Made by a program: the position numbers and the translations under genes | Notes under the pieces: model-generated | Told to the model about the DNA's origin: nothing | Database searches by the model: none | What the model saw: the letters and a program-made list of their open reading frames with translations, nothing else | Assembly: GCF_028023675.1 (NCBI RefSeq) | Contig: NZ_JAQIOZ010000003.1 | Location: 310,001 to 374,000 of the forward strand | Direction of reading: 5' to 3' | Source of the DNA: Primorskyibacter aestuariivivens | GTDB taxonomy: Bacteria > Pseudomonadota > Alphaproteobacteria > Rhodobacterales > Rhodobacteraceae | DNA length: 64,000 nucleotides | Shown: positions 19,929-31,021 of the stretch, one piece after another | Layout of the letters: each line of letters begins with the position of its first letter | How positions within the stretch are numbered: position 1 is the first letter of the stretch

Positions 19929-20681
19929 ATGCGTCAAATTTTCGACCCTGTTCAGTGGGACCGGAAGATTCTGGTGTTCTTCGCCGGGGTGATCCTGCTC
20001 GCGGTTCTGGGGCCGTTCGGGACATATGAAAGTCTGGGGTTTGCGGAGCGGCTGGTCTATTGGGTGATCGTATTTTCCGGGGTCGGCTTTTTCATGCATG
20101 TGATCCTGACCACCTCGCTCAAGGCGCACTGGCTGGCCGCATTGCCTCCGATTGCACGGCTTGGCGTCGGCGCGGTGCTGGCCGGGCTGCCGGGCGCGGC
20201 GGTGGTGATCTTTGTGCATGGTGTCTTCCTGCCGCCGCTCATATCGGCCGATACACTGCCAGTGATCTGGGCGCAGGTGACGGCGATTGGCTGGATCGTA
20301 GGTGCGGTCGAGTTTCTGGATTGGGGTCGTACATCCGACGACACGCCGCAGCTCATCTGTACCCGGTTTCACAAACGCCTGCCGCCGGAGCTGGGTGACG
20401 ACATCATTTCGATCTCGATGCAGGATCACTATGCCGAGGTGACGACCACGCTCGGCACGCATATGGTGCTGATCCGGCTGGCGGACGCCATGGAGGAGTT
20501 GAGCGACGCGGAAGGCGTACAGCTTCACCGTTCGCATTTCGCGCTTGTGTCCCATCTGCGCGAGATCCGGCGTCACGGGGCCAAAATGCGCGTGGTCCTT
20601 TCCGATGGTCGGGAGCTTCCGGTCAGCACAACGCATGTTGACGAGGTGCGCAGCGTGCTGAAAAAGCGCAAGGCGCACTGA
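19929..20681 (+). CDS. Membrane-anchored LytTR-type transcription regulator
   Basis: 250 residues. Four hydrophobic helices fill about residues 14-130 (e.g. ILVFFAGVILLAVLGPFGTY), followed by a LytTR DNA-binding domain (about 145-245) with ISISMQDHYAEVTT, LHRSHFALVSHLREIRRHG and VLSDGRELPVS. Regulators of this membrane-LytTR class lack a receiver domain and act without a classical kinase; some are held by a small membrane partner. No obvious partner is adjacent. Its position 525 bases before acs makes the acetate genes possible targets, but this is only inferred. Confidence 0.88.
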   Translation: MRQIFDPVQWDRKILVFFAGVILLAVLGPFGTYESLGFAERLVYWVIVFSGVGFFMHVILTTSLKAHWLAALPPIARLGVGAVLAGLPGAAVVIFVHGVFLPPLISADTLPVIWAQVTAIGWIVGAVEFLDWGRTSDDTPQLICTRFHKRLPPELGDDIISISMQDHYAEVTTTLGTHMVLIRLADAMEELSDAEGVQLHRSHFALVSHLREIRRHGAKMRVVLSDGRELPVSTTHVDEVRSVLKKRKAH

Positions 20682-21206
20682 GGATGTGATCACAAATAAG
20701 CCTGTTTTTGGGCCTGTTCCGCCGGATTTCACGGTGCGCAGGGCGCTTTGATCCGTGGAGTCTTTGCGGGCAGGGCGATTATCGGGTTTTGCGCGCCGAT
20801 TTTCAGGACGTGATCACAAAAGACTCTGTGATTGCACGCCGCACGCCCCACGTGCCGATTCCGCCCAGATTTCTGTAAGTTTCCCTAAGGGCAGCGAATA
20901 TGTCGCAGCGCAGAAATCGGCTCGGTTTCAGGTTTCGGACCGCAAAAATTTACCTGTAGCGCTATCAGTAGTTCTGGGTAGTCAATGGGTAATGCGCTGA
21001 TAAAAAACAGATATTCTTTAAATTCAGGGGGAAATTTACAACTTTTCACTCAGTTTTGTGGATTTCTTTACAGAACCACACCCTGCGTCAGGGCGTCCAG
21101 CGGTATTTTCAAGGCAGCAAGTATAAAGTCTGCCTCGAGACTGAACCAATTCAGGCGGAGGAGTGCCGTCGGTTCGGAGAATATCGCGAGGAAAAGGGGG
21201 AGCTTC
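20682..21206 (+). promoter_or_regulatory. Long acs upstream regulatory region
   Basis: 525 bases without a convincing gene. It holds TGTGATCACA (20685-20694) and a second GTGATCACAAA (20810-20820; the first copy also continues AAA), 124 bases apart. Two GANTC sites (GAGTC near 20759, GACTC near 20822) are present. TAGCGCTATCA (20957-20967) matches the core of the LacI-type operator before the glycogen operon. An AT-rich stretch (about 20990-21075) probably contains the promoter. AAGGGGGAG (about 21193-21202) is the acs ribosome site. The length suggests several regulators act on acs. Confidence 0.6.
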
Positions 21207-23138
21207 ATGCCCAACGACCAAACCACCCGCCAGTACCACATCGACGCCGCCAAATACGACGAGATGTACGCGCAATCCGTGAACGACCCCGAAGCCTTCT
21301 GGGGTGAACATGGCAAGCGGATCGACTGGATCAAGCCCTATACCAAGGTAAAAGATGTCAGCTTTGCTCCCGGCGACATCCACATCAAGTGGTTTTACGA
21401 TGGCACCCTGAACGTCTCCGCCAACTGTATCGACCGCCACCTCGAAACCCGCGGCGACCAGACCGCGATCATCTGGGAACCGGATGAGCCGGGTGAAGAG
21501 ACGCTGCACATCACCTATGATGAGCTGTCGCGCCGCACCAACCGGATGGCCAACATCCTCAAGGACATGGGCGTCGGAAAAGGCGACCGCGTCATCATCT
21601 ACCTGCCGATGATCCCCGAAGCGGCCTATGCCATGCTGGCCTGTGCCCGTATCGGCGCCATTCACTCCATCGTTTTCGCCGGTTTCTCGCCCGACGCTCT
21701 GGCGGCCCGGATCAACGGTTGCGGCGCCAAGGTCGTGATCACCGCTGACGAAGCGCCGCGTGGCGGCCGTAAAACCGCGCTCAAGGCCAATGCCGACAAG
21801 GCGCTGGAAGGCTGTGGCGACGACGTCAAGGCTCTTGTCGTGCGCCGCACCCATGGCGATGTCGCCTGGAACGACGCCCGCGATTACGATTACAACGCGC
21901 TGGCTGTGAAAGCTTCCGAAGAATGCGCCCCCGAAGAGGTGAACGCCGAGGATCCGCTGTTCATTCTCTACACCTCGGGCTCCACCGGCCAGCCCAAGGG
22001 CGTTGTACACTGCTCGGGCGGCTATCTCGTCTATGCGGCGATGACCCACGAGCTGGTGTTTGATTACCATGATGGCGACGTCTACTGGTGTACCGCTGAC
22101 GTGGGCTGGGTCACCGGCCACTCCTATATCGTCTACGGCCCGCTGGCCAATGGCGGCACCACGCTGATGTTTGAAGGCGTGCCGACCTACCCGGATGCCT
22201 CGCGCTTCTGGCAGGTCTGCGAAAAGCACAAAGTGAACCAGTTCTACACCGCCCCGACCGCAATCCGTGCGCTGATGGGGCAGGGCACCGAGTATGTCGA
22301 GAAATGCGACCTGTCTTCGCTGCGTATCCTTGGCACCGTGGGTGAGCCGATCAACCCCGAGGCCTGGAACTGGTACAATGACGTGGTTGGCAAGGGCAAC
22401 TGCCCGATCGTCGACACATGGTGGCAGACCGAGACCGGCGGCCACATGATGACCCCGCTGCCCGGCGCCCACAAGCTCAAGCCCGGCGCGGCCCAGCGTC
22501 CGTTCTTTGGCATCCAGCCGCTGGTTCTGGAGCCCGCATCGGGCGAAGTGATCGAAGGCGACGATGTCGAGGGTGTTCTGGTTATCGCCGACAGCTGGCC
22601 GGGCCAGATGCGCACCGTCTGGGGCGACCACGAGCGTTTCGAGAAGACCTATTTCTCGGATTACAAGAACTACTACTTCTCCGGCGACGGCTGTAAGCGC
22701 GACGCGGATGGCGAATACTGGATCACCGGCCGTGTGGACGATGTGATCAACGTCTCCGGTCACCGTATGGGCACCGCGGAAGTGGAAAGCGCACTGGTGG
22801 CGCATCCCAAGGTCGCCGAGGCCGCTGTTGTGGGCTACCCGCACGAAATCAAGGGCCAGGGCATCTATTGCTACGTCACCCTGATGGCGGGCGAAGAGCC
22901 CTCGGATGAGCTGACTAAGGAGCTGCGCACCTGGGTACGTCAGGAAATCGGTCCGATCGCATCGCCCGACCTGATCCAGTGGGCCCCGGGCCTGCCGAAA
23001 ACCCGCTCGGGCAAGATCATGCGCCGCATCCTGCGCAAGATCGCCGAGAACGACTATGGCGCGCTGGGCGACACCTCGACCCTTGCTGATCCGTCGGTTG
23101 TCGATGATCTCATCGAAAACCGCATGAACCGGGCCTGA
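21207..23138 (+). CDS. acs: Acetyl-CoA synthetase
   Basis: 643 residues from ATG 21207 with GGGGGAG upstream. AMP-forming enzyme that turns acetate, ATP and CoA into acetyl-CoA. The adenylate-forming signature [12 protein letters not shown], the A5-type [16 protein letters not shown] and the C-terminal [13 protein letters not shown] are all present; the lysine in SGKIMRR is the one acetylated to inactivate Acs in other bacteria. Full family length. A 23-base gap leads to adk, which can recycle the AMP produced, and the symporter genes downstream fit acetate uptake. Confidence 0.97.
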
Positions 23139-23161
23139 GAGACATGGACGGAGCAACGACC

Positions 23162-23827
23162 ATGACAAGCCCCGCCGTTCTGATCCTTCTCGGCCCTCCG
23201 GGCGCCGGGAAGGGCACCCAGGCCCGCATGCTCGAAGACAAATTCGGGCTGGTCCAGCTGTCCACCGGGGACCTGCTGCGCGCAGCTGTTGCGGCGGGCA
23301 CCGAGGCCGGTAAACGCGCCAAGGCCGTGATGGAAGCCGGTGATCTGGTGTCTGACGACATCGTCATCGCCATCCTGCGCGACCGCCTGACTGAGGCCGA
23401 TTGCGCCAAGGGTGTGATCCTTGACGGTTTCCCGCGCACGACCGTGCAGGCCGAAGCGCTGGACACGCTGCTCGAAGAGAGCGGCCAGAAAATCAATGCC
23501 GCGATTTCCCTTGACGTGGAAGACGCGGCAATGGTGACCCGGATTTCGGGTCGTTTCACCTGTGGCAATTGTGGCGAAGGCTACCACGACACGTTCAAGG
23601 CTCCGGCCAAGGACGGCGTGTGCGACAAGTGCGGCGGCACCGAGATGAAACGCCGGGCAGACGATAACGCCGAAACGGTCGCCTCGCGGCTTGAGGCGTA
23701 TCACGCACAGACCGCCCCGCTCATCGCGTACTACGATGGCAAGGGCGTTTTGCAGCGCGTGGATGCAATGGGCGATATCGACGCCATTGCCAGCGCGCTG
23801 GGAGAGATCGTCGCCAAGGCTCAATAG
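23162..23827 (+). CDS. adk: Adenylate kinase (zinc-type LID)
   Basis: 221 residues from ATG 23162 with GGAG upstream; ATG 23144 is an in-frame alternative adding six residues. The P-loop GPPGAGKGT is at 11-19. The LID carries two CxxC pairs (C134/C137 and C154/C157), so it should bind a structural zinc. Converts AMP + ATP to 2 ADP. In most bacteria adk sits after secY in a ribosomal protein operon; a copy directly after acs suggests dedication to AMP recycling from acetate activation. Whether a second adk exists cannot be seen from this window. Confidence 0.93.
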   Translation: MTSPAVLILLGPPGAGKGTQARMLEDKFGLVQLSTGDLLRAAVAAGTEAGKRAKAVMEAGDLVSDDIVIAILRDRLTEADCAKGVILDGFPRTTVQAEALDTLLEESGQKINAAISLDVEDAAMVTRISGRFTCGNCGEGYHDTFKAPAKDGVCDKCGGTEMKRRADDNAETVASRLEAYHAQTAPLIAYYDGKGVLQRVDAMGDIDAIASALGEIVAKAQ

Positions 23828-24238: not shown

Positions 24239-26026
24239 ATGGACCAGTTTACCATTAACCTGCTGTTTGTGGGCGCGTCCTTTGCGCTTTACATCGGCAT
24301 CGCGATCTGGGCCCGCGCGGGCTCCACATCGGAATTCTACGCCGCCGGTCGCGGCGTTCACCCGGTCACCAACGGTATGGCGACGGCTGCTGACTGGATG
24401 TCGGCTGCATCGTTCATCTCGATGGCGGGCCTCATCGCCTTTACCGGCTACGACAACTCGACCTTCCTGATGGGTTGGACCGGTGGTTACGTGCTTCTGG
24501 CGCTGCTGCTTGCTCCTTACCTGCGTAAGTTCGGCAAGTTCACCGTTTCGGAATTCATCGGCGACCGTTTCTACAGCCCCACTGCACGTTTGGTGGCGGT
24601 GATCTGTCTGATCGTGGCGTCGGTGACCTACGTGATCGGTCAGATGACCGGCGTTGGCGTGGCCTTTGGCCGCTTCCTCGAAGTGTCGAACGAAACCGGC
24701 CTGTTCATCGGCGCCGGCGTTGTGTTCGCCTACGCCGTGTTCGGCGGCATGAAGGGTGTGACCTACACCCAGGTGGCTCAGTACTGCGTTCTGATCATGG
24801 CCTACACCATTCCGGCCATCTTCATCTCGCTGCAGCTGACCGGCAACCCGATCCCGGCCCTAGGCCTGTTTGGTGACCACGTTGCTTCCGGTGAGCCGCT
24901 TCTGGCCAAGCTGGACCAGATCGTGCGCGAACTGGGCTTCAACGAGTATACCGCACACCACGCGGATACGCTGAACATGGTGCTGTTCACCCTGTCGCTG
25001 ATGATCGGTACTGCCGGTCTGCCGCACGTGATCATGCGCTTCTTCACCGTTCCCAAAGTGTCCGACGCCCGTTGGTCCGCTGGCTGGACGCTGATCTTCA
25101 TCGCGCTGCTGTACCTCACCGCACCTGCGGTTGGCGCAATGGCCCGTCTGAACATCACCGAACAGTTCTGGCCGAATGGCACCTCCGGCGAAGCCGTGTC
25201 TGTCGAAACCATCGAAAACGATGAAGCCTATAAGTGGATGGGCACCTGGCAGAAAACCGGCCTGCTTGGCTGGGAAGACAAGAACGGCGACGGCAAGATC
25301 CAGTACTACAACGACGCCAATGCAGAGATGCAGGAAAAAGCGGCAGCCAATGGCTGGGAAGGCAACGAGCTGACCAACTTCAACCGCGACATCCTCGTTC
25401 TGGCCAACCCCGAGATTGCCAACCTGCCGGGTTGGGTCATCGGTCTGGTCGCTGCGGGTGGTCTTGCGGCTGCTCTGTCGACCGCGGCTGGTCTGCTGCT
25501 CGCGATCTCCTCGGCTGTGTCCCACGACCTTCTCAAAGGTCAGCTGACACCGAACATGTCTGAGAAGAACGAACTGCTGTCCGCACGGATTTCAATGGCG
25601 GTTGCCATTGCTGTGGCCACCTATCTGGGTCTCAATCCTCCGGGCTTTGCGGCGCAAACCGTGGCTCTGGCCTTTGGTCTTGCCGCTGCCTCGATCTTCC
25701 CGGCGCTGATGATGGGTATCTTCTCGAAGACCATCAACAACAAAGGTGCGGTCGCTGGTATGCTTGTCGGTCTGGTTGTCACCTTGGTCTACATCTTCCT
25801 GCACAAAGGTTGGTTGTTCATCCCGGATACAAACAGCTTCACCGATGCTGATCCGCTGCTTGGCACGATCAAATCCACCTCCTTCGGTGCCGTTGGCGCG
25901 CTGCTGAACTTCATCACGGCTTACTTCGTGTCGAAAGCAACCGCTCCGGTTCCGCAGGAAATCCAGGACCTGGTCGAAAGCGTCCGCATCCCCAAAGGTG
26001 CCGGTGCTGCCGTCGAAGGCCACTAA
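24239..26026 (+). CDS. Sodium:solute symporter, VC_2705 subfamily (probable acetate/monocarboxylate transporter)
   Basis: 595 residues, SSS family, about 13 membrane segments. The start GASFALYIGIAIWARAGST and the FYAAGRGVHPVTNGMATAADWMSAASF region (given in outline) match the ActP-like branch. Between membrane segments is an unusual hydrophilic insert (about residues 310-385) with D347-x-N349-x-D351-G-K-I, an EF-hand/dockerin-like calcium loop. Inner membrane. Its place after acs, adk and DUF4212 suggests acetate uptake. Substrate is inferred from context only. A strong terminator follows. Confidence 0.9.
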   Translation: MDQFTINLLFVGASFALYIGIAIWARAGSTSEFYAAGRGVHPVTNGMATAADWMSAASFISMAGLIAFTGYDNSTFLMGWTGGYVLLALLLAPYLRKFGKFTVSEFIGDRFYSPTARLVAVICLIVASVTYVIGQMTGVGVAFGRFLEVSNETGLFIGAGVVFAYAVFGGMKGVTYTQVAQYCVLIMAYTIPAIFISLQLTGNPIPALGLFGDHVASGEPLLAKLDQIVRELGFNEYTAHHADTLNMVLFTLSLMIGTAGLPHVIMRFFTVPKVSDARWSAGWTLIFIALLYLTAPAVGAMARLNITEQFWPNGTSGEAVSVETIENDEAYKWMGTWQKTGLLGWEDKNGDGKIQYYNDANAEMQEKAAANGWEGNELTNFNRDILVLANPEIANLPGWVIGLVAAGGLAAALSTAAGLLLAISSAVSHDLLKGQLTPNMSEKNELLSARISMAVAIAVATYLGLNPPGFAAQTVALAFGLAAASIFPALMMGIFSKTINNKGAVAGMLVGLVVTLVYIFLHKGWLFIPDTNSFTDADPLLGTIKSTSFGAVGALLNFITAYFVSKATAPVPQEIQDLVESVRIPKGAGAAVEGH

Positions 26027-26197: not shown

Positions 26198-28021
26198 ATG
26201 GGACATGATCTGACCGGCATTCGCAGTTTCCTGCAATCGGTGCACCCCTATGACAGCCTGTCCGAAGACACGCTCGACACCGTACTGGACGGTTTCCAGA
26301 TCCTGAATTTTCCCGCCGGTGAGCCGATCTACGATCTCGATGAGCAACTGGCCGGGCTTTACCTGATCGTCTCGGGCGAGGTGGCGATCACCGATCCCAA
26401 CGGCGTGCAGGTCTCGGCGCTGGGGCCGCGCAATTCCTTCGGTGAACGCGGGCTGCTGCGCGAGGGCCGTTCCGTCACAGCCGCGCGCGCCAGGACCGAA
26501 AGCAAGCTGCTGCTGCTGCCCGCAGACGTGTTTGAGCGGTTGATGGACAAGGAACGCGCCTTTGCCCGCTACTTTGACCGCGCCCGCCCCAAACGTGCCG
26601 GCACCGCCGATCTGGCGGAAATGCGCGTCTCTGACCTGATGGCCCCCAATCCCTTGTCCTGCCCGCCCGAAACATCGGTGCAGGCCGCCGCCGCCATGCT
26701 GCGCGATGCGCGGGTGTCGTCCATCGGGGTGGTCGAAGACACGCGGCTGGCCGGTATCCTGACCACCCGCGATTTCACGACCAAGGTTCTGGCCGAGGGT
26801 CTGCCGGGCGAGACGCCTGTGTCACAGGTCATGACCCGCGATCCGCATTCCCTTGGTCCCAACGACCTTGGCTCGGACGTGCTGCAGATGATGCTGGAAC
26901 GCAAGATCGGCCATGTGCCGATCACCGATAGCGGACGCTTCAAAGGTATCGTGACCCAGACCGACCTGACCCGGCATCAGGCGATCAGCTCTGCCGTGGT
27001 CATCGGCGACATCGCCCATGCCGAGACGGTTGAGGAACTGACCGGCTATACCAAGCTCATCCCGCAGGTGCTGGCGCAGCTTGTGGCCACGGGCAAACCC
27101 CATGACGTGGTGACCCGGTTGATCACCGATATCGGAGACGCCGTCACCCGACGCTTGCTGAAGATGGCCGAGGATGAGCTGGGCGCGCCGCCGGTGCCGT
27201 ATCTCTGGCTGGCCTGCGGCTCTCAGGGGCGGCGCGAACAGACCGGTGTGAGCGATCAGGACAATTGCCTGTTCCTGCATGATGATTTCCGCCCCGAACA
27301 TGACACCTATTTCGCCGCGCTGGCGAAATTCGTCTCGGATGGGCTGGATGCCTGTGGCTATTTCTATTGCCCCGGCGACATGATGGCTACGAACCCGCGC
27401 TGGCGGCAGCCGCTGCGCGTCTGGCGGGATTATTTCTCGGGCTGGGTGGCCAAGCCGGATAACGAGGCGCAGATGTTGGCCTCGGTCATGTTCGACCTGC
27501 GCCCGATCTCGGGCGATGACGACCTTTTCACCGGGCTACAGGCCGAGACGCTGGCCATGGCGTCGCGCAATTCGATCTTTGTCGGTCACATGGTGTCCAA
27601 CTCGCTCAAACATGTGCCCCCCTTGAGCCTGCTCAGAGGCTTTGCGACATTCCGCTCGGGCGAGCATAAAAACACCATCGACCTCAAGCATAACGGCGTT
27701 GTGCCGGTGGTCGATCTGGGCCGCATCTATGCGTTGCAGGGTCGGCTGGAGCCCGCAAACACACGCGCGCGTCTTCTGGCTGCGCGGGACCGGGGCGTGA
27801 TTTCCGAAACAGGGGCCAAGGACCTGATCGACGCCTATGACCTGATCGCGCATACTCGGCTGGAACATCAGGCCCACCAGATCAAGCACGGGCAAAAGCC
27901 CGACAACTTCATGGCCCCGACCTCGCTGTCGGATTTCGAACGCGGCCATCTGCGCGATGCTTTCGTTGTCGTGCGCACCATGCAATCCGCCATCGGCCAG
28001 GGCCGGGGCACATTGGGATAA
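26198..28021 (+). CDS. cNMP-binding/CBS/DUF294 nucleotidyltransferase-like protein
   Basis: 607 residues, cytoplasmic. Order: a cyclic-nucleotide-binding fold (about 15-125, FPAGEPIYDLDEQLAGLYLI, ALGPRNSFGERGLL); two CBS motifs (about 145-205 and 208-270); a DUF294 nucleotidyltransferase-like domain with GS at 341-342 and D353-x-D355 in GVSDQDN; and a helical DUF294 C-terminal domain. The G-S...D-x-D pattern is that of GlnD/GlnE-type nucleotidyltransferases, so it may nucleotidylate a partner in response to a nucleotide ligand. Such genes commonly accompany the DUF4212/symporter pair. Substrate unknown. Confidence 0.9.
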   Translation: MGHDLTGIRSFLQSVHPYDSLSEDTLDTVLDGFQILNFPAGEPIYDLDEQLAGLYLIVSGEVAITDPNGVQVSALGPRNSFGERGLLREGRSVTAARARTESKLLLLPADVFERLMDKERAFARYFDRARPKRAGTADLAEMRVSDLMAPNPLSCPPETSVQAAAAMLRDARVSSIGVVEDTRLAGILTTRDFTTKVLAEGLPGETPVSQVMTRDPHSLGPNDLGSDVLQMMLERKIGHVPITDSGRFKGIVTQTDLTRHQAISSAVVIGDIAHAETVEELTGYTKLIPQVLAQLVATGKPHDVVTRLITDIGDAVTRRLLKMAEDELGAPPVPYLWLACGSQGRREQTGVSDQDNCLFLHDDFRPEHDTYFAALAKFVSDGLDACGYFYCPGDMMATNPRWRQPLRVWRDYFSGWVAKPDNEAQMLASVMFDLRPISGDDDLFTGLQAETLAMASRNSIFVGHMVSNSLKHVPPLSLLRGFATFRSGEHKNTIDLKHNGVVPVVDLGRIYALQGRLEPANTRARLLAARDRGVISETGAKDLIDAYDLIAHTRLEHQAHQIKHGQKPDNFMAPTSLSDFERGHLRDAFVVVRTMQSAIGQGRGTLG

Positions 28022-28571: not shown

Positions 28572-28967
28572 ATGACGGAGGAGACCAAACCAGCCCGTAT
28601 TCTGCTGGTCGAAGACGAGGTGAATATCGCCCTTGCCCTGACATTCCTGATGCAGCGCATGGGCCATGACGTCACCCATATCGAAAACGGCCGCGAGGCG
28701 CGGGATGCGGTGGCCGACATGGCCCCCGATCTGGTGTTGCTGGATGTGACCCTGCCCGAAGTGTCGGGCTACGAGATCTGCCAGCATATCCGCCAGACCC
28801 CGGCGCTGGACGGCACAAGGGTGCTGGTGCTGACCGCGCGCGGCGCGGATGTGGAGCGGCGCAAGGCGCTGGCGCTGGGTGCGGACGGGTTCATGTCGAA
28901 ACCCTTCGAGACCGCGGAATTACAGGCCCGCGTTTCCGAGATGTTGTCCAAGCCTAGGGAGAGTTAA
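28572..28967 (+). CDS. Single-domain response regulator
   Basis: 131 residues: one CheY-like receiver and nothing else. The acidic pocket is E14-D15, the phosphoacceptor is D58 in LVLLDVTLPE, and the switch Thr and Lys lie in VLVLTARG and FMSKPF. It begins after a GAGGAGGGGAG ribosome site and ends two bases before the next gene, which has a sensor-kinase-like region. It lacks an output domain, so it must act by binding another protein, perhaps the exonuclease fusion or the DUF294 protein. A typical kinase is not encoded here. Confidence 0.93.
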   Translation: MTEETKPARILLVEDEVNIALALTFLMQRMGHDVTHIENGREARDAVADMAPDLVLLDVTLPEVSGYEICQHIRQTPALDGTRVLVLTARGADVERRKALALGADGFMSKPFETAELQARVSEMLSKPRES

Positions 28968-28969
28968 CC

Positions 28970-31021
28970 ATGTTTGCTGGCTGGTCGCTGCGTCTGCGTG
29001 TGTTTTTGTTTTTCGCGTTGCTGGGTCTGGCGTCTTTGGCGCTGATCGGGGCGGGGCTGTGGCTGGGCTATTCCCGGGCCGAAGGGCAACCGGACCTGGG
29101 TCCTTTCGTGCTGGGCGGTGCGGTGGCGGGCTTTGCGGTTCTGGGGCTGGTGACGTGGATCTGGCGTCTGTTCGACGAAAACCTCGCGCGACCGATGCAG
29201 GCGCTGGCGGCGCAGATGCGCGTGCTGGCCCAGTCGAACGAGGCCAAGCCGCTGAACGAAGAACAGACCAAATACCTTGGCGATCTGGCCCCTGCCGCCG
29301 CTTCCATTGCCGAGAAGCTCAGCCAGACGCGCAGCGACCTGACCCTTGCCATCCAGCGCGAAACCACCCGGCTCGCGGAAGAGAAAGAGCGGCTTGAAAC
29401 GCTTTTGGCGGATGTGAATGCCGGTATCCTGCTCTGTTCCCGCGACCATAACGTGGTCTTTTACAACTCGGTGGCCCGCAATCTCCTGCAAGAGGGCAAC
29501 GCGCCCCGTCTGAACCAGCCCGTCACCGGTTGTCTGCGCGAGGGGCCGCTCCTGCACGCTTACGAACGGCTCACGCTGGAAGGGTCGCAGCACACAGAGA
29601 CCCAGTTTCTGTGCTCGACACCGGACGGCACGGCCATGTTCACCGCCACCATGCGGCTTGTGCCGCAGGGTAATGAACGCGGCGGCGGCTATGCGCTGAC
29701 CTTGCGCGACGTGACCGCCGATATCGGGCTGCATGCCGAACGCGAGGCGCTGCTCAGTGACATGGTCGACGGGATGCGTCGCAAGGCCGCCAATCTCGAC
29801 ACATTGGTCAGCCTGCGCGAGGCGTCCGACGATCCCGTGGAACAGGCGCTGTTGCAGGAAACCCGCGACATGGCCCGCGCCGTGGACCGGTTCGGCCAGC
29901 GCTACAACGACACCACCGCAAGCTGGTGGCCGGTCGCTGATATCTCTTCGCGCGATTTGCTGGACTCTTTGCGCGCGCGGCTGCGCGGGGACGGTGTGAA
30001 ATTCACCGCCGAACATGCGCCGCTTTCCGTGGCCTGTGACGGCTTCATGATCGTGTCGCTGATGGCGCATCTGGCGGGCAAGCTGAAAGACAACGGTTAT
30101 CTGGAAGAGGTGGCCTTGAGCCTTGTCGAAGGGGACGAGGGCGAAGCGCTGATGCGGCTGGGATGGGAGGGCAACCCGCTGCCGCTGGGCGTGCTGGAGG
30201 GCTGGCTCGAGGAGCCGCTTGAGATGGGGCAGGCGGAACTGACCGGGCGCTATGTGCTGTCCCGCCACAGCACCGATATCTGGCCGGAATCCGAAGGCAT
30301 CTGCGCCGCGATCTGCCTGCCGCTTCCGCGCACAGAGGAACGCGGCGATCACGACCTGCGCGGCGCGGTCTATGATTTTTCGCTGTTTGAAAAATCCCGC
30401 GTGGCGCGGCTGGCCGATACGCCGCTGGAGGATCTCAGCTACGTGGTTTTCGACACGGAAACCACCGGGCTTTTGCCAAGCCAGGGCGACGAGATCGTGC
30501 AGATCGCCGCGCTGCGCGTGGTGGGCGGCAAGCTTCTGGAGGCGGAACGGCTCGACGTTCTGGTCGATCCACGCCGCAACATTCCCGAAGCCTCGACCAA
30601 GGTGCATGGCATCACCGAGGCGATGGTCAAGGGCGCGCCGGGCATCGAGGTGGCGGGCAAGGACCTGCATGACTTTGCCCAGGGGTCCGTTCTGGTGGCC
30701 CATAACGCGCCGTTTGACATGGCGTTTTTCCACAAGCACGCGGACCTGATCGGGCGCGAGTTCGACAACCCGGTGCTGGATACGGTGCTGCTCTCGGCAG
30801 TGATCTTTGGCATCACCGAGGTCCATACGCTCGACGCGCTTTGTGAACGGCTGGGCGTGGTGATCCCGGAAAAGGACCGTCATACGGCCATGGGGGACAC
30901 CTTGGCCACCGGCACGGTGTTCGTGCAGATGATGCAGATGCTCAAGGAGTTGGGTTACACCAGTTTCGGCGAAGTGCATGACGCGATGAAGAAACAGATG
31001 CGGCTTTACAAACGGAACTGA
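28970..31021 (+). CDS. Membrane sensor-like protein fused to DnaQ-type 3'-5' exonuclease
   Basis: 683 residues. Two membrane helices (about 10-30 and 46-66) are followed by a HAMP-like/coiled-coil stretch, a PAS-like domain (about 140-250) and a region laid out like a histidine kinase (about 255-470). The H-box has no phosphorylatable His in the expected place (LLSDMVDGMRRKAANL), and the N-box is replaced by SLMAHLAGKLKDNG. The C-terminal DEDDh exonuclease (about 485-665) is intact: D495 and E497 (FDTETTG), VHGIT, D583 (HNAPFD), H638 and D643 (HTAMGD). It looks like a membrane-held nuclease controlled by a degenerate kinase. Often annotated simply as DNA polymerase III epsilon-like. Confidence 0.88.
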   Translation: MFAGWSLRLRVFLFFALLGLASLALIGAGLWLGYSRAEGQPDLGPFVLGGAVAGFAVLGLVTWIWRLFDENLARPMQALAAQMRVLAQSNEAKPLNEEQTKYLGDLAPAAASIAEKLSQTRSDLTLAIQRETTRLAEEKERLETLLADVNAGILLCSRDHNVVFYNSVARNLLQEGNAPRLNQPVTGCLREGPLLHAYERLTLEGSQHTETQFLCSTPDGTAMFTATMRLVPQGNERGGGYALTLRDVTADIGLHAEREALLSDMVDGMRRKAANLDTLVSLREASDDPVEQALLQETRDMARAVDRFGQRYNDTTASWWPVADISSRDLLDSLRARLRGDGVKFTAEHAPLSVACDGFMIVSLMAHLAGKLKDNGYLEEVALSLVEGDEGEALMRLGWEGNPLPLGVLEGWLEEPLEMGQAELTGRYVLSRHSTDIWPESEGICAAICLPLPRTEERGDHDLRGAVYDFSLFEKSRVARLADTPLEDLSYVVFDTETTGLLPSQGDEIVQIAALRVVGGKLLEAERLDVLVDPRRNIPEASTKVHGITEAMVKGAPGIEVAGKDLHDFAQGSVLVAHNAPFDMAFFHKHADLIGREFDNPVLDTVLLSAVIFGITEVHTLDALCERLGVVIPEKDRHTAMGDTLATGTVFVQMMQMLKELGYTSFGEVHDAMKKQMRLYKRN

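Follow-up and report, generated by a model that had tools for sequence, protein, structure and literature searches.

Why does a protein built like a sensor kinase, whose kinase part looks dead, end in an intact nuclease? This question is raised by P0001, a membrane-anchored fusion of a PAS domain, a pseudo-histidine kinase and a DEDDh exonuclease. It is encoded in a 64,000-nucleotide stretch of Primorskyibacter aestuariivivens DNA, here called the window. The gene directly upstream encodes P0002, a single-domain CheY-like response regulator (RR), and the same operon encodes P0004, a putative CBS/DUF294 nucleotidyltransferase. By analogy with DivL of Caulobacter, we think it moderately probable that the pseudo-kinase reads the phosphorylated RR and gates the exonuclease.

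The sequence-only reading of this locus had raised the possibility of a sequencing error joining two genes. This was rejected, since full-length relatives were found in the family (about 30 among 149 genomes) and also at the order, class and phylum levels. Sampling at the phylum level gave matches at E<=1e-45 in 47 of 299 genomes, and many of these genomes belong to other classes. It appears that a pseudo-kinase whose output is an enzyme other than a kinase has been conserved in more than one class of the phylum. Altogether 156 loci including the window were examined, and 150 were kept for the domain and RR counts; L106-L108, L127 and L128 (exonuclease profile below 200 bits) and L067 (a split gene) were left out. 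Many of the 150 loci are mutually related, so these counts are not independent. The DHp hairpin, the CA domain and the exonuclease were all recognised in 76 loci. Another 19 have CA and exonuclease without a recognised DHp, 51 have a PAS-type N-terminus and the exonuclease (the short forms), and 4 have the exonuclease with little before it.

The kinase ancestry of the middle region is visible to profiles only. The kinase region of P0001 had no match at E<=10 among PDB sequences, and a Pfam scan of P0001 alone gave no HisKA or HATPase at E<=1 and no HAMP profile match. HisKA was recognised in 3 of 35 fusion members scanned individually. In contrast, the DHp+CA profile (alignment A4, 35 rows) matched histidine kinase 4u7n (E 3.5e-10), DivL (4q20, E 2.3e-8, the third-best PDB match), ZraS and a VicK-like kinase. 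The proposed profile check for HATPase_c and HAMP was thus negative with the single sequence, while the kinase origin itself stood up. An AlphaFold2 model of P0001, built on an alignment of 26 (mean pLDDT 83, pTM 0.39), has credible domains, and their mutual arrangement is not credible. It contains helices at residues 7-36, 44-88 and 97-147 and a PAS-like fold at 152-247. Behind these come a hairpin made of helices 249-283 and 288-319, then a CA-like fold at residues 323-455, and last the exonuclease at 490-682. The best PDB matches of the model in Foldseek include WalK, VicK, LOV-FixL chimeras, PolC, DnaQ epsilon and ThkA; WalK, VicK and ThkA agree with the DHp and CA-like folds of the middle region. 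The two membrane helices (hydrophobic segments at about 11-29 and 46-64) and the PAS-like domain (a weak PAS_9 match at E 0.0055, the modelled fold and the WalK, VicK and LOV-FixL matches) of the sequence-only reading were recovered as well.

Column 267 of the alignment, the phospho-accepting His position, holds His in none of the 76 sequences. Glu stands there in 36 and Asp in 31, an acidic residue in 67 of 76 altogether; the other nine have A (4), S (2), T (1), V (1) or N (1), and none has Tyr. Three residues further on, 73 of 76 have retained Arg. The N-box Asn is not conserved either: counted from the eight most frequent letters per column, columns 358-373 hold Asn in nine sequences at 362 and in one at 366, with another letter always commoner. 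No His was found at the equivalent of column 267 in 16 further phylum-level loci, which were read from segments. Replacement by an acidic residue is widespread and has been maintained. With hairpin and CA fold present and both kinase hallmarks absent, as first noted for P0001, the kinase part looks dead by its residues, and an active histidine kinase was rejected.

On the output side, all five DEDDh residues (D495, E497, D583, H638 and D643), already noted in P0001, are invariant in 150/150 aligned rows. Pfam RNase_T spans residues 492-651 of P0001 (E 1.6e-32). The nearest folds in VIA-align are PolC (Z 23.8) and DnaQ epsilon (Z 20.9), followed by RNase T and exonucleases related to it; the VIA-align matches listed are all exonucleases and hence uninformative on the kinase part, which Foldseek covers. 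Because the exonuclease is still there when RR and DHp have been lost, with its site intact throughout, it is the constant output of the family, and RR and DHp are an optional add-on. The domain resembles DnaQ/PolC-type exonucleases in fold and catalytic residues. Unlike them, the fusion has a sensory module and adjoins a nucleotidyltransferase rather than a polymerase, and a long supported branch parts its exonuclease from the DnaQ of its own genome (44-row tree, two outgroup rows). DEDDh enzymes are known from nucleic-acid substrates. The fold neighbours agree with an ordinary regulated RNase, which would act at the membrane on mRNA, small RNA or nanoRNA from genes of carbon metabolism, trimming them at a rate adjusted by RR and pseudo-kinase. 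This serious rival is possible, though we would not call it probable. Hydrolysis of a second messenger (cyclic dinucleotide products), raised in the sequence-only reading, was considered as a further candidate activity.

The strongest link between the fusion and the CheY-like neighbour is evolutionary. The P0002 gene stops 2 bases short of the P0001 start codon, and Pfam recognised only Response_reg and no output domain in P0002, in line with the sequence-only reading. The phosphorylation residues are kept in 74 of 78 RR homologues. The RRs of L049 and L168 lack some of them though the DHp hairpin is kept; perhaps these are phospho-independent versions. An RR lies directly upstream in 75/76 loci with DHp, CA and exonuclease (weak at L115, 45 bits; none at L113). 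It is missing from 18 of the 19 CA loci without a recognised DHp, L136 having a weak adjacent match (46 bits), from 49 of the 51 short forms, and, as a single-domain RR, from the 4 loci with little before the exonuclease. An RR therefore accompanies 75/76 recognised hairpins versus 3/70 loci without one in the CA and short-form groups. L064, a CA locus, has a hairpin-length segment and was coded as hairpin present and RR absent in the tree test; the figures then become 75/77 versus 3/69 (146 tree rows). Distances to the RR were taken from the domain start; the open frames at L117, L138 and L142 extend back over the directly upstream RR. In the new phylum-level loci (L213 and L215-L229, 14 of the 16 from other classes; flanks of only about 1.5 kb), the RR adjoins the fusion in 15/16.

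Predictions set beforehand were borne out in part. Eight split-match genomes were expected to be without an RR; none was found in seven of them (L129-L135), the eighth being L136 with its weak match. All ten short forms L179-L188 were without RR, as predicted. Among 30 loci fetched as full-length (L149-L178), 24 had DHp and RR, and six (L166, L167 and L169-L172) had neither a recognisable hairpin nor an RR. The prediction did not extend to L148, which is the second copy in its genome. In a 15-row clade, CA and exonuclease remain, the hairpin segment is shortened and the RR gene is absent. In the model of one such member (mean pLDDT 70), the hairpin (251-277/282-301) is about 20 residues shorter than that of P0001. 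The modelled shortening can be read as a deletion experiment done by nature, and it suggests that the RR docks on the hairpin.

Hairpin and RR could also have been inherited or lost together without interacting. We consider such shared ancestry improbable. A quick tree of flanking segments (146 rows, 46 of 143 inner branches open) showed at least 9 changes each for the hairpin and for the RR. A dependent model beat an independent one in the Pagel test (likelihood ratio 24.8, p 5e-5), the p value being optimistic as the test uses all branches including the open forks. Parsimony gave 6 joint losses versus 3 hairpin-only and 3 RR-only changes, and the 15-row clade also argues for more than common descent. 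On the other side, most short forms fall in one clade, and well-supported branches offer only 4-5 independent pairs (3 same, 0-1 opposite; median p 0.25), a result that is not significant and is underpowered. Further observations weigh against an RR that docks on the hairpin. L113, L064 and L223 keep a hairpin-length segment with no RR in the stretch fetched, and the short forms L120 and L121 carry an RR about 1.7 kb downstream, beyond the nucleotidyltransferase gene. In genus g24 and G628, DHp and RR were expected to be missing, but all 11 loci (L137-L147) have a divergent DHp and an RR. RR-fusion mutual information (74 pairs, Neff 63) is not enriched in the DHp, which holds 1 of the top 20 pairs; most top pairs fall in the exonuclease and the transmembrane/coil part. 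Phylogeny probably dominates this signal, which we take as noise and as no support for docking. Searching the own genome with the window symporter for an SLC5-type (CrbS-like) sensor kinase returned only the symporter itself at E<=1e-3, and so no candidate kinase for the RR.

Co-loss gives a link without a direction. The flow might be reversed, the pseudo-kinase sequestering or tuning the RR while the exonuclease is passive or a separate activity. We regard this as decidedly improbable: the RR has no output domain, and the exonuclease keeps its site in every row and outlasts RR and DHp.

Few pseudo-histidine kinases are known to read a response regulator, and DivL is the chief case. According to passages of PMC4211667, the DivL-DivK system shares with the fusion a PAS domain, a membrane anchor, a non-phosphorylatable pseudo-histidine kinase, a single-domain RR and the co-loss of RR and DHp-CA, an argument made there for relatives of DivL; phosphorylated DivK on DivL gates the kinase CckA. 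The same passages describe Tyr at the His site and the N, G1, F and G2 boxes as kept in DivL, whereas the fusion has mostly D or E and no conserved N-box. DivL signals to CckA (PMC4211667, in part), while the fusion instead carries a DEDDh exonuclease. With E or D in most sequences at the His position and Tyr in none, a DivL orthologue was ruled out.

In the mechanism we favour, P0002 would receive its phosphoryl group from another kinase or from a small phosphodonor and would then dock on the DHp hairpin, as phosphorylated DivK does on DivL. Docking, together with whatever the PAS or membrane part senses, would alter the activity or exposure of the exonuclease. The exonuclease may act with the neighbouring nucleotidyltransferase in controlling organic-acid uptake or activation. 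Architecture, dead kinase, nuclease site and co-occurrence are read from sequences and models; binding, phospho-dependence and gating are what we infer.

The CBS/DUF294 (GlnD-like) nucleotidyltransferase, absent from the sequence-only reading, is the most constant partner of the exonuclease. A DUF294 homologue lies inside the fetched stretch in 132/133 close and 33/39 distant loci, and upstream on the same strand in 11/16 new phylum-level loci. The nucleotidyltransferase signature GS..R.E...DxD is strict in 125 of 167 best DUF294 matches and permissive in 41 more; the split L067 has none. In ten distant loci (L127, L128, L189-L195 and L197) exonuclease and DUF294 form one chain. Seven of these were scanned with Pfam, and all contain RNase_T, CBS, DUF294 and DUF294_C. 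A symporter homologue is near 6 of the 10. Their exonuclease domains score 120-168 bits, below the 200-bit family line, and group in the 44-row tree with the fusion family, a branch of 100% SH-aLRT support separating them from own-genome DnaQ and L196. With two outgroup rows, the tree disfavours plain DnaQ for these domains and the placement is not final. L107 and L108 group with the single-chain fusions and may be two more. By hydropathy, the single-chain proteins have no membrane segment before the exonuclease, so membrane tethering is not universal. The existence of single-chain fusions argues that both enzymes act on a common target. At L125:2980-4497, near a DUF294 gene, an EamA-type transporter and an RNase_T exonuclease of the fusion group share one open reading frame, a further hint that the exonuclease acts on transporters.

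This partnership suggests a writer and an eraser: the DUF294 protein would add a nucleotide to a target (a symporter subunit, another protein or RNA), the DEDDh enzyme would remove it, and RR, PAS and pseudo-kinase would control removal. Such a cycle is compatible with gating by the phosphorylated RR, to which it supplies a substrate, and parallels the uridylyltransferase/uridylyl-removing cycle of GlnD with DEDDh in place of HD. We consider it rather unlikely. The near-constant pairing and the single-chain fusions, with their place in the tree, speak for it, and DUF294_C is grouped with the C-terminal domains of GlnD and GlnE in a passage of PMC3710099. GlnD and GlnE resemble P0004 in this relationship (same passage), in sensing domains and in the nucleotidyltransferase motif. 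Unlike GlnD, P0004 shows no HD removing domain among its Pfam matches, and removal would fall to a candidate DEDDh enzyme that is either a protein of its own or fused to the nucleotidyltransferase. On the other side, target modification is hypothetical for enzymes known from nucleic-acid substrates, the single-chain exonucleases score low, and 6 of 39 distant loci (L110, L111, L114, L117, L196 and L200) have no DUF294 gene in the stretch. The same constant pairing and fusion remains unexplained by an ordinary regulated RNase, unless tailing of RNA 3' ends makes it another version of writing and erasing.

A related pair has been studied in Pseudomonas putida. Passages of PMC9927547, PMC8402216 and PMC5715377 describe PP_0354, a CBS-domain protein, and PP_0353, an RNase_T-type exonuclease, as side by side in the MxtR/ErdR regulon. 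They give the P. fluorescens homologue cAMP-binding, CBS and nucleotidyltransferase domains, place the pair next to actP/yjcH in P. aeruginosa PAO1 and P. fluorescens NCTC10783, and mention no CheY-like neighbour of PP_0353. PP_0353 is described as an RNase_T-type putative exonuclease only, the words 'PAS domain' being absent from PMC9927547, and it is compared here by description. The pair is linked to pyruvate use: mutants in pp_0353 (exonuclease) and actP-I grow poorly on pyruvate, the pp_0354 (nucleotidyltransferase) mutant does not, and on 20 mM acetate the loss of either gene of the pair makes no difference (PMC9927547, in part). The strains were alike with added DNA in the same account, which counts against a DNA-scavenging role. 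These phenotypes would fit an eraser that keeps a transporter active, if the mark inhibits the transporter; the common phenotype of pp_0353 and actP-I mutants is no proof of a common target. The authors propose mRNA degradation instead (PMC9927547, in part), which favours the regulated RNase.

The genes before the fusion run on the same strand in the order acs, adk, symporter pair, P0004, P0003, P0002 (Table 1), and the acetate or carbon setting suggested earlier is reflected in this organic-acid operon. An Acs homologue is present in 111/133 close loci. The adenylate-kinase-like gene inside the operon has a homologue in 96/133 close loci, and its product could recycle AMP made by Acs. P0003 has no Pfam or NCBIfam match; 126/133 close loci have a homologue, whose usual place is between the DUF294 gene and the RR or exonuclease. 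Because the symporter is of the VC_2705 family and far below the cut-offs of true ActP models, acetate is its likely, not proven, substrate. The LytTR protein is a possible operon regulator.

Table 1. Positions of the genes and domains discussed, counted from the first letter of the window (ORF, open reading frame)
Feature	Position	Strand	Basis
LytTR DNA-binding protein, upstream of operon	19929-20678		E 9.3e-12
Acetyl-CoA synthetase-like (Acs), start codon uncertain	20985..23138	+	ORF; name from sequence reading, not profile
Adenylate kinase-like protein	23144..23827	+	ORF; name from sequence reading, not profile
Sodium/substrate symporter small subunit, 85 aa	23964..24221	+	Profile TIGR03647
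Sodium/solute symporter large subunit, VC_2705 family	24239..26026	+	Profile TIGR03648
P0004, cNMP-binding / CBS / DUF294 / DUF294_C putative nucleotidyltransferase, 607 aa, signature GSQGRREQTGVSDQD	26198..28021	+	Pfam; motif
P0003, conserved protein, function unassigned, 170 aa	28028..28540	+	ORF
P0002, single-domain CheY-like RR, 131 aa, phospho-acceptor Asp 58	28572..28967	+	Response_reg E 6.6e-26; conserved residues
P0001, PAS / pseudo-histidine-kinase / DEDDh exonuclease fusion, membrane-anchored, 683 aa	28970..31021	+	ORF, Pfam, model, profiles
Helix 7-36 with transmembrane segment 1	28988..29077	+	AlphaFold2 model; hydropathy peak 11-29
Transmembrane segment 2, residues ~44-66	29099..29167	+	AlphaFold2 model; hydropathy peak 46-64
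Two-helix HAMP-like/coiled-coil connector, residues ~68-147	29171..29410	+	Model; 'HAMP-like' is an interpretation
PAS domain, residues 150-247	29417..29710	+	Weak PAS_9; strand/helix pattern; WalK/VicK/LOV-FixL matches
DHp (HisKA-derived) helical hairpin, residues 249-319, phospho-His replaced	29714..29926	+	Model; profile matches
Codon 267 (Asp), aligned to phospho-accepting His	29768..29770	+	Alignment column, 76 sequences
Degenerate CA (HATPase-like) domain, residues 323-456	29936..30337	+	Model; profile matches
DEDDh (PolC/DnaQ-type) exonuclease domain, residues 468-682; D495 E497 D583 H638 D643	30371..31015	+	Pfam, Z-scores, alignment

Among the matches listed in open-licence literature (subscription journals lay outside this scope), neither the pseudo-kinase/exonuclease fusion nor any fusion of exonuclease and DUF294 was found described. 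Neither the parts nor the principle of a pseudo-kinase is new; what appears new is the wiring to a nuclease and the partnership with a nucleotidyltransferase. The natural joint loss of hairpin and RR maps where the RR should dock, and the exonuclease/DUF294 pair of the acetate/pyruvate regulon gains a concrete, testable mechanism. In the most specific version, which we regard as speculative and unlikely, the DUF294 nucleotidyltransferase and the DEDDh enzyme would form a reversible GlnD-like nucleotidylation cycle switching the VC_2705-type symporter, with removal gated by the phosphorylated CheY-like protein docking on the dead kinase. If this were true, two-component signalling would control nutrient uptake post-translationally through a nuclease.

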